Shown piece by piece: positions 25,834 through 28,626 of a DNA stretch of 64,000 nt (position 1 is its first letter; each line of letters begins with the position of its first letter). The stretch lies in the NCBI RefSeq assembly GCF_004785955.1, contig NZ_ML214300.1:609223-673222 (forward strand), given 5' to 3'. The position numbers and the translations under genes are program-made. The notes below the pieces were generated by a model. That model did no database searches, was not told the DNA's origin, and worked only from the letters and a program-made list of their open reading frames with translations. This DNA comes from Halostella litorea. GTDB lineage: Archaea; Halobacteriota; Halobacteria; Halobacteriales; Natronoarchaeaceae.

Positions 25834-27024
25834 TCAGCGGATGACGTCGAGCCCGTTGTTCCGGTCGACCTCGTTCCGGCCGCCGTCGCTCTGTGCGCCG
25901 GTGCCGTGGACGTGGTCACCCCCGACGTTCTGACTGGCGTCGAAGTCGGTCTCGTCGACGCCCTCCAGGCTCTCCCGGGACTTGTTGGCCTGCTTCTGGG
26001 TGGTCGGGCCGAGCACCTGGGCGCTCTGGACGCCCGTCATGATCGCCATCACCCGGACCTTCCCCTTGTAGTTCTCCTGGATGCGCGCGCCCCAGATGAC
26101 GTTCGCGCTCGCCTCCAGTCGCTCGGTGATGTTGTCGGCGATGCCCTCGGCCTCCTTCAGCGTGAGGTCGGGGCCGCCGGTGATGTGGACCAGCCCGCCG
26201 CTCGCGCCGCGGTAGTCCACGTCCAAAAGCGGGTGGCTCATCGCGTCGTTGACCACCTCGCGGGTCTTGTTCTTGTCCTGGGTCTCGCCGACGAGCATGA
26301 CCGCGACGCCGCCCTGGTTCATGATCGTCGTCATGTCCGCGTAGTCCAGGTTGATCAGGCTTGGCTGGGTGATGGTCTCGCTTATCCCCTTGACGGTCTC
26401 GGCGATGATCTGGTCCATCACCGAGAACGCCTTGCCGATCGGGAGGTTCGGAACGTAGTCGAGCAGGCGGTTGTTGTCGAGCACGATGATCGAGTCGGCC
26501 TCCTCGCGGAGTCGCTCCAGGCCCTCCTCGGCTTTCACCGTGCGGGCGCGCTCGACGTTGAACGGCGTCGATACCATGCCGACGACGATCGCACCCTGTT
26601 CGCTGGCGATCTTCGAGACGACGGGCGCTGCGCCGGTGCCGGTGCCGCCGCCCATGCCCGCTGTGACGAACACGAGGTCGGCGTCGCCGAGCACTTCCTT
26701 GATGGTCCCCTGGGCCATCTCGGTGGCGCGCTCGCCCATCGACGGGTCGCCGCCCGCGCCGAGGCCGTTCGTGAGCGACTTGCCCACGAGGATCTTCGTG
26801 TCGGCCTCGATCATCTTCAGGTGCTGTTTGTCGGTGTTGATGGCGACGGTTTCGGCCCCGTCGACGCCGATGTTGTACAGGCGATTGACCGTGTTGTTGC
26901 CCGCGCCGCCGGCGCCGACGATGACGATACGGGGGTCGCCGAACTCGTCGTCGTCGGCGTCGACGCTCATCTCGCGTTGCTCCTGTTCGGCGTTTTCGAG
27001 GGCGTCCTGGACGATGTCCTGCAT
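25834..27024 (-). CDS. ftsZ2: Cell-division GTPase FtsZ2
   Basis: A 396-residue tubulin-superfamily GTPase of the division ring. It has [18 protein letters not shown], the tubulin signature [10 protein letters not shown], and the catalytic T7 loop NLDYADM, so GTPase and polymerisation sites look intact. The N-terminal extension [19 protein letters not shown] and the C-terminal end match haloarchaeal FtsZ2, which constricts the ring in Haloferax, rather than FtsZ1. It follows cdrS by two bases and shares its promoter. The C-terminal 50 residues are an Asn/Asp/Gly-rich linker. Confidence 0.95.
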
Positions 27025-27026
27025 CG

Positions 27027-27206
27027 TTACACCTTCGCCCAGGTGCGCTTCCCCGAGCCGTCCTGGGTCTTTTCGCCCTGTTCGTTGATCATCTCGCGGA
27101 CGGCCGACCGGATCGCCTCGCTCCGGTTCGGAAACTCACCCGTCTCGACTAGCTGTTCGACCTCGTCGATCTGCTGTTTCGGGATTCGCAGTGTCACACG
27201 CTCCAT
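27027..27206 (-). CDS. cdrS: CdrS ribbon-helix-helix transcription factor
   Basis: A 59-residue RHH protein. The beta-strand [20 protein letters not shown] contacts DNA, and the helices [17 protein letters not shown] dimerise. It directly precedes ftsZ2 with a two-base gap. In Haloferax and Halobacterium the equivalent gene, cdrS, is co-transcribed with ftsZ2 and regulates division genes. The C-terminus is a short Gly/Lys tail. The promoter region holds several inverted repeats suited to RHH dimers. Confidence 0.92.
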
Positions 27207-27224
27207 GGTTGGGTTCCCCTCTGG

Positions 27225-27266
27225 GTAAGACGCGCGTGTGATCTCCTCACACGCATTCTGTCTTAC
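27225..27266. promoter_or_regulatory. Long inverted repeat in the cdrS leader (GTAAGAC ... GTCTTAC)
   Basis: GTAAGAC (27225-27231) and GTCTTAC (27260-27266) flank an inner inverted pair GTGTGA/TCACAC (27236-27241 and 27247-27252). The element lies 19-60 bases before the cdrS start, in the leader, and could be an operator or an RNA hairpin. Confidence 0.6.
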
Positions 27267-27283
27267 ACGCCGTAACACCGGTA

Positions 27284-27298
27284 CGAAACCGGGTTTCG
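27284..27298. promoter_or_regulatory. 15-base palindrome CGAAACC-G-GGTTTCG
   Basis: A perfect palindrome around a central G between the two GTAAGAC elements of the cdrS promoter. Its sequence differs from the flanking operators, so it may bind another protein. Confidence 0.45.
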
Positions 27299-27316
27299 GC
27301 CACACGCGCCGGGTGT

Positions 27317-27334
27317 GTAAGACGACCGTCTTAC
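27317..27334. promoter_or_regulatory. 18-base operator-like palindrome GTAAGACG-AC-CGTCTTAC
   Basis: Perfect eight-base arms around two bases. It sits about 26 bases downstream of the TATA element at 27360-27367, so it should cover the transcription start of cdrS-ftsZ2. That position suits repression, for instance by the RHH proteins CdrS or CdrL. Confidence 0.6.
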
Positions 27335-27359
27335 GCGGGTCTACACAGCATACCATATG

Positions 27360-27367
27360 TAATAAAA
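27360..27367 (-). promoter_or_regulatory. Candidate TATA box of cdrS-ftsZ2
   Basis: TTTTATTA on the minus strand is the only clear AT-rich box in the 217-base gap before cdrS. Initiation near 27335-27340 would give a leader of about 130 bases. Confidence 0.5.
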
Positions 27368-27423
27368 GTACCGACGGTCGTATGACACGGCCGTTTACGG
27401 CCGCCTCAGGCGCTGATAGCGGG

Positions 27424-27945
27424 TTACGACGAGTCGAGCACGTCCGCCGCCGGCGTCCGACGGCCGCAGCTCGGGCAGAACGCCCAGTCGGTCCGGAGCT
27501 CGTCGCCGCAGTCGCAAAACACCCTGTGGGTCGCTTTCTCGCCGCAGTTCGGGCAGTACACGTGGTCGGCGTCGACCGATTCGCCGCACTGACCGCACGT
27601 ATTACTCCCGTCGGACGGCTCACGTGGCTCGGCCGCGGCCGTCTTACTCGGCGTCGCGTCCGCGTCGGCGGTCCTCGCGTCCCCCTCCAGCGTGACGTTT
27701 ACGTTGATGTCCTGCCCGCCGCTCGACCGCTCCTGCAGCCGGCGTTCGACGATAGCGTCGACGCGCTCGGCGACCAGGTCGTCGATGCTCCCGCCGTTTC
27801 CCCGTGACGGCCCGTCGTCGGCCGACGGCTCCCGGCCCTCGAGGTACTCGCGGAGCGCTCGGCGCAACACCTCGCTCTTCGAGGCGTCGAACCGGTCGAG
27901 TTCGTCGACGAGCTCGTCGTCGGCGCGGAACGTGATCTTGCTCAT
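27424..27945 (-). CDS. cdrL: CdrL-like ribbon-helix-helix protein with zinc ribbons
   Basis: A 173-residue protein. Residues 1-42 are an RHH DNA-binding domain ([20 protein letters not shown] then [13 protein letters not shown]). A charged linker follows, then two zinc ribbons at the C-terminus: [19 protein letters not shown] and [18 protein letters not shown]. This layout and its place upstream of cdrS-ftsZ2 match CdrL, the long partner regulator of the division locus. It has its own promoter, separated from cdrS by 217 bases of operator-rich DNA. The symbol is assigned from position and domains. Confidence 0.82.
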
Positions 27946-28079: not shown

Positions 28080-28153
28080 CCGCCCTTAGCTCAGACTGGT
28101 AGAGCAGTCGACTGTAGATCGACTTGCCCCCCGTTCAAATCGGGGAGGGCGGA
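28080..28153 (+). tRNA. tRNA-Tyr (anticodon GTA)
   Basis: A 74-base cloverleaf without intron. The acceptor stem is CCGCCCT/AGGGCGG with C1-G72, as in archaeal tyrosine tRNAs, and discriminator A. The D-arm is GCTC ... GAGC, the anticodon stem GTCGA/TCGAC around loop CTGTAGA (anticodon GTA), and the T-arm CCCCG TTCAAAT CGGGG. No CCA is encoded. Confidence 0.95.
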
Positions 28154-28626
28154 CCTTCTCTCGACCCGATTCCGAGCAGAGTCCGAACAGCACGCCGTCT
28201 TGCGACTTCGCCCCGAAATCAACGGCGGAAATCCCGAGTTGACCTTATCTCATGGCGCGGGGCTTCGCCGTCGGACGATTTCTGTAGCAGACGGAGGTGG
28301 TTCCTGATACTCCACTGCGAGTGCGGCGGTCCCGTCGAAGTCACCGACGCGCGAACCGAGCCGAAGTCGAGCCGCTGTTTCTCGTTACAGAGGAGTCCGA
28401 TTTCGTCGGGACAGTAGTCCTGCTCAGCGCCGAGGTTGCCGGCCTCGCCTTTGAGCGATGGGTCCCTGTCGTACTCACCGATCCCGACTGCGTTGCGTTC
28501 GTGAGGACCACTGCATGGCGGTGAACCAGACAGGAGTGGTGACGGCTGGCGGTGTTGCACTCTCCATGGATGGAGCTTGGTTCGGTGTTCCAGCTACTCT
28601 GGACTGCTCACCTTGACAGGTGCAGA
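28154..28626. other. Unassigned stretch downstream of tRNA-Tyr
   Basis: 473 bases with no gene I can assign. A minus-strand frame at 28219-28560 (113 codons) has GC-rich third positions over its last 80 codons, including YDRDPSLKGEAGNLGAEQ and QRLDFGSVRASVT, and could be a gene remnant. It has no recognisable domain or convincing promoter. The segment is poorer in GC than its surroundings and directly follows a tRNA, a common integration point. Confidence 0.4.

Follow-up and report, generated by a model that had tools for sequence, protein, structure and literature searches.

A conserved, putatively folded mRNA leader overlapping a probable CdrL operator in the haloarchaeal cdrS-ftsZ2 promoter

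How FtsZ-based division is controlled in archaea is poorly understood. The operators of ribbon-helix-helix (RHH) proteins such as Arc, Omega and CopG are composed of short repeated words. The closest described system is the CdrL-cdrS-ftsZ2 locus of Halobacterium salinarum, where the region upstream of cdrS was the sole reproducible CdrL site in ChIP-seq (PMC7439475). The regulon of CdrS, the RHH regulator encoded in the same operon, has been described in Haloferax volcanii, in which ChIP-seq returned 18 CdrS sites, none of them at the cdrS promoter (PMC8406309 Table 1), and a monocistronic cdrS mRNA of about 250 nt was seen by Northern analysis in Haloferax (PMC8406309). Leaderless mRNAs make up 72% of the coding transcripts of H. 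volcanii (PMC4983044). In H. salinarum, growth is accompanied by a rise in cdrS-ftsZ2 mRNA that is not matched proportionally by ribosome footprints (PMC8303175). Candidate structured cis RNAs were identified by genome comparison in a 2010 survey, which lists mraW (RF01746) for Actinomycetales and whose text mentions neither ftsZ nor halo (PMC2864571).

The window, that is, the whole 64-kb stretch of DNA analysed, adjoins Halostella in the FtsZ2/CdrS tree and carries the same genes in the same order as the H. salinarum locus, with cdrL, the promoter, cdrS and ftsZ2 following one another on the minus strand (Table 1). The cdrL product matches Pfam RHH_1 and DZR above the cut-offs and CdrL_M slightly under its cut-off, and its beta-strand SKITFR is near-invariant. 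The cdrS product also matches RHH_1 and, as in H. volcanii, belongs to the operon itself; an earlier sequence-only reading had noted RHH regulators on both sides of the region. A tRNA gene (28084-28157, plus strand) lies divergent from cdrL and is assigned to Tyr from the anticodon GTA read from the sequence; in an Rfam scan, a tRNA was found in 15 of 20 related loci, mostly about 1 kb upstream and on the strand opposite to cdrS.

Table 1. Features of the cdrL-cdrS-ftsZ2 locus in the window. Half-sites are numbered in transcription order; the leader and its pairings (P1 to P3) are predicted.
Feature	Position	Strand	Description
cdrL	27424..27945	-	ORF; N-terminal ribbon-helix-helix and double zinc ribbon
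Upstream half-site	27380-27386	-	GTCATAC on minus strand (1 mismatch; GTATGAC as + strand); upstream of TATA and 52 nt ahead of half-site 1
TATA box	27360..27367	-	TTTTATTA; its TTTA gives the spacing to half-site 1
Whole cdrS leader	27207..27334	-	128 nt by prediction; three-way junction
18-bp palindrome	27317..27334	-	GTAAGACGGTCGTCTTAC; candidate CdrL operator over the predicted transcription start
Half-site 1	27328..27334	-	GTAAGAC; predicted mRNA 5' end; P1 5' strand; left half of the 18-bp palindrome
Half-site 2	27317..27323	-	GTCTTAC; right half of the 18-bp palindrome; P2 5' strand
Palindrome CGAAACC-G-GGTTTCG	27284..27298	-	CGAAACCCGGTTTCG on minus strand; possible P2 apical hairpin
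Half-site 3	27260..27266	-	GTAAGAC; P2 3' strand; P2 is 9 bp in the window (GUCUUACAC / GUGUAAGAC)
P3 hairpin	27234..27254	-	GCGUGUGA-GGAGA-UCACACGC; folding of the segment between half-sites 3 and 4
Inner pair	27234-27241 / 27247-27254		GCGTGTGA / TCACACGC; in P3 hairpin
Half-site 4	27225..27231	-	GTCTTAC; P1 3' strand, shortly before SD-like GAGGGG
SD-like sequence	27216-27221		GAGGGG; a few nt past P1
cdrS	27027..27206	-	ORF, 59 aa, RHH; Pfam RHH_1
ftsZ2	25834..27024	-	Pfam Tubulin and FtsZ_C

The sequence-only reading had described the promoter as an operator array, with four GTAAGAC/GTCTTAC half-sites in two inverted pairs within 110 nt, an inner GTGTGA/TCACAC pair and a separate CGAAACC-G-GGTTTCG palindrome, and all of these repeats are present. 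Counted on either strand, the 64 kb contain five exact heptamers, and four of these fall within 110 nt, compared with 2.9 per 64 kb and at most two in any 110 nt when the window is dinucleotide-shuffled. Of the 34 alternating four-copy 7-mer matches in the window, GTAAGAC is the sole A+T-containing word not of the GC type. Across Halobacteria, the words are conserved in 80 of the 80 named cdrS upstream regions compared and recur there at near-fixed places, some lineages being without an exact half-site 3. Half-site 1 is identical in 106 of 107 leaders, half-site 2 is exact in 100 of 107, and, of the 103 leaders that possess half-site 4, 101 have it in exact form. The exact palindrome GTAAGAC-N4-GTCTTAC is found once each in 185 of the 243 genomes of the order and twice in none. 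It is single in this genome too, where near-palindromes elsewhere showed no excess over a reversed-pattern control (19 versus 27). We consider it fairly probable that the array combines two overlapping control layers, a leader RNA and a CdrL operator in the DNA, of which the RNA layer is the best supported.

The position of the promoter elements bears on both layers. Of the 76 upstream regions in which a TTTA word was located, 74 have it 32-33 nt ahead of half-site 1, and in comparison psmB genes a TATA-like word precedes the ATG by about 29-32 nt, with the ATG at the place of a leaderless start. From this spacing, the predicted start of cdrS transcription is half-site 1 itself or a position up to about 4 nt ahead of it, which would place all four heptamers inside the transcribed 5' leader. 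The 18-bp palindrome overlaps this predicted start, in agreement with the sequence-only reading. That reading had omitted a further half-site, GTATGAC, which lies outside the predicted transcript because it is upstream of the TATA box and which recurs at position -52 across genera. The size of the Haloferax mRNA counts against the predicted extent of the leader, since it is smaller than the leader plus gene predicted for the window (about 300 nt).

Folding of single leaders gave a three-way junction, in which P1 joins half-sites 1 and 4, P2 joins half-sites 2 and 3 and continues into an extended stem, and P3 forms between half-sites 3 and 4. Tandem hairpins were rejected as the main structure, the junction being the more stable fold for 73 of the 78 leaders, with a mean advantage of 5.2 kcal/mol. 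Compared with dinucleotide shuffles, folding was stronger in the segment separating half-sites 2 and 3 (mean z -1.97 in 38 genera) and in the one separating half-sites 3 and 4 (mean z -1.47), and control stretches after half-site 4 and upstream of the TATA box showed no folding excess (+0.23 and -0.22). The CGAAACC palindrome showed no sequence conservation across relatives; in the sister genome (L204), two of its A-U pairs are replaced by G-C and one pair is lost. Both folds of the heptamers are possible and are close in energy in some species, as would suit a leader in which a ligand, a protein or transcription speed gates the switch from tandem hairpins (pairs 1-2 and 3-4) to the junction (1-4 and 2-3) and back. 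Such a bistable leader is nevertheless unlikely, because the junction is favoured by the above mean energy, the extension pairs after half-site 3 and before half-site 4 show no excess (z -0.8), and the repeated word in P2 has been lost in some lineages.

Plain MAFFT and RNAalifold over all leaders recovered chiefly P1, and word-anchored tests were therefore used to assess the junction fold. In an alignment of 50 leaders, 90.8% of cells are paired under this structure, versus 87.1% after shuffling and 32-50% in slid registers. In simulations along the FtsZ2/CdrS tree, covariation went beyond phylogeny, as in structured cis-regulatory mRNA leaders, for the P2 extension (61.7% paired versus a null of 48.1 ± 5.0%, 0 of 300 simulations) and for P1 pairs 8-9 (90.8% versus 82.0 ± 5.8%, 5 of 300 simulations). 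Support for P1 comes from these two pairs, because its heptamer is almost invariant and so yields no covariation; at pair 8, A-U takes the place of G-C in L170, L171, L173, L180 and L186, at no fewer than three separate places of the tree. The paired fraction of slid-register controls was not above the tree-simulated null. A weakness is that a cross-register control, pairing the nucleotides after half-site 2 with those before half-site 4, exceeded the null in the count of pairs changed on both sides (5/300), but not in paired fraction.

The substitutions of half-site 3 point in the same direction. With counts that are not independent by descent, 20 of its 31 substitutions retain a standard pair with half-site 2, and in other species all changes at its positions 3 and 6 are A to G, whereas the untranscribed heptamer copies show a single A to G change in 35 substitutions; half-site 3 therefore appears to drift mainly in a G-U-tolerant manner, unlike those copies. 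These data bear on the view that the array is a DNA operator only, on which CdrL and/or CdrS dimers act cooperatively at four heptamers and RNA pairing is a by-product of the inverted repeats. The near-invariance of half-sites 1 and 4, the recurrence of untranscribed heptamers upstream of the TATA box, the CdrL ChIP signal at the cdrS promoter (PMC7439475) and the direct repeats at 10-bp steps in Haloquadratum would all fit it. We regard it as improbable, since it accounts neither for the covarying pairs outside the heptamers and the folding of the inter-word segments nor for the G-U rule obeyed by half-site 3, and leaders remain in genomes without CdrL. In addition, half-sites 3 and 4 are separated by 27-38 nt across loci, a range that rules out a common helical phase. 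The operator reading holds in part: the array is conserved, overlaps the predicted start and probably contains a CdrL site, but half-sites 3 and 4 behave as strands of RNA structure and not as phased operators, and the same holds for the inner pair and the CGAAACC palindrome. That reading had also missed that the four words would belong to one RNA fold together with the inner pair and probably with the CGAAACC palindrome as well.

A DNA layer beside the RNA fold is indicated by the heptamers upstream of half-site 1. With at most one mismatch, such a heptamer is found in 97 of the 100 CdrL-bearing loci and four of the eight that lack CdrL (20% in shuffles), and an exact one is found in 81 of 100 and one of eight, respectively (0.8% in shuffles). 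These positioned, untranscribed words in most CdrL loci, and their rarity in exact form where CdrL was not found, argue against a leader RNA only, in which the heptamers would be nothing but P1 and P2 strands and CdrL would recognise another promoter feature. The exact half-site 2 retained in L189, L190, L209 and L210, where half-site 3 is gone, also speaks against it. A single cis RNA would likewise predict one palindrome per genome, and the palindrome persists without CdrL in L179, L184, L187 and L188; taken together, we give this possibility a low probability. Under the two-layer reading, CdrL would set transcription of the operon through an operator formed by the heptamer ahead of the TATA box and, probably, by the palindrome that covers the start.

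The two layers seem separable by lineage. In L189, L190 and L191, which have CdrL, the palindrome (with one change in L191) and the upstream heptamers are kept and half-sites 3 and 4 are lost, while L181, L182 and L186, in which CdrL was not found, keep P1 without half-site 2. The link between CdrL and the heptamer is correlative, because the palindrome is kept in complete genomes without a CdrL match (the above four loci; G003, G012, G039 and G100, listed as complete and without a match, keep both palindrome and leader) and because L168 has exact upstream heptamers yet no CdrL match in a genome that is 99% complete; absence of CdrL from incomplete genomes is weak evidence. The candidate CdrL sites resemble the operators of Arc, Omega and CopG in their heptamer-size words and in the steps of about 11 bp within the palindrome. 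The array as a whole differs from those operators in its variable spacing and in that half of its words would be RNA-paired, and the 2 to 5 nt between half-sites 1 and 2 across loci is odd for a rigid protein site.

As to the protein, the array probably includes a binding site for one of the flanking RHH proteins, CdrL, as the sequence-only reading had proposed and as the H. salinarum ChIP-seq suggests (PMC7439475). A term search of the full text of that study found no CdrL motif and no leader RNA, and no later CdrL paper was found in the literature searched, which omitted preprints and most subscription journals. The window thus adds to the H. salinarum locus a putative RNA layer and a candidate sequence for the operator of CdrL. 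The further proposal of an autoregulatory switch by both RHH proteins finds no support: the heptamer is absent from the cdrL promoter in the window and present in that of only six of 100 other loci, and the H. volcanii CdrS sites omit its own promoter. Hence action of CdrL on cdrS is supported by the literature, and a mutual autoregulatory switch is not. CdrS was also rejected as the reader of the array, since the upstream regions of dacZ and psmB, which are other CdrS targets, share no conserved GTAAGAC word in relatives.

The fold is common to almost the whole haloarchaeal group and absent from the RNA catalogues searched. A covariance model (R1) matched 77 of the 81 haloarchaeal genomes, and the 312 other genomes of the phylum gave no match; like structured cis-regulatory leaders, the fold has a fixed place upstream of one gene, with one locus per genome, and all matches comparable for place precede cdrS. 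When the window and 20 loci were searched against Rfam 15, only tRNA was found at gathering scores, the leader had no match, and the sub-threshold matches of the window were those of chance. The cdrS leader is, like the candidates of the 2010 survey (PMC2864571), a candidate structured cis RNA found by comparison, and differs from them in having no Rfam 15 match and in its restriction to haloarchaea.

P1 would close a few nucleotides ahead of GAGGGG, the SD-like sequence of cdrS, and this closeness is most simply explained by an effect on the start of translation or on the stability of the mRNA; the fold may thus tune translation or stability of the cdrS-ftsZ2 mRNA. The mismatch between mRNA and footprints in H. 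salinarum (PMC8303175) is only consistent with such post-transcriptional control, for which a conserved leader on the division-tubulin operon provides a testable candidate. It is also conceivable, with little likelihood in our view, that the leader is a haloarchaeal regulatory RNA that governs division by sensing a ligand or protein. The heptamer would then have two readings, one as DNA recognised by CdrL and one as RNA strands within the leader of cdrS, and CdrL or CdrS might bind both. More generally, inverted repeats in promoters can be misread as operators alone.

Some lineages carry variants of the array. Natrialbales leaders (L007, L014, L036 and others) contain an extra GTCTGAC between half-sites 3 and 4, and some have another at -46. 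In the Haloquadratum group (L008, L010 and L165), half-site 2 is GTATGAC and half-site 3 is lost, and the palindrome is replaced by a direct repeat, GTATGAC-tgc-GTAAGAC-ggt-GTATGAC, in 10-bp steps.
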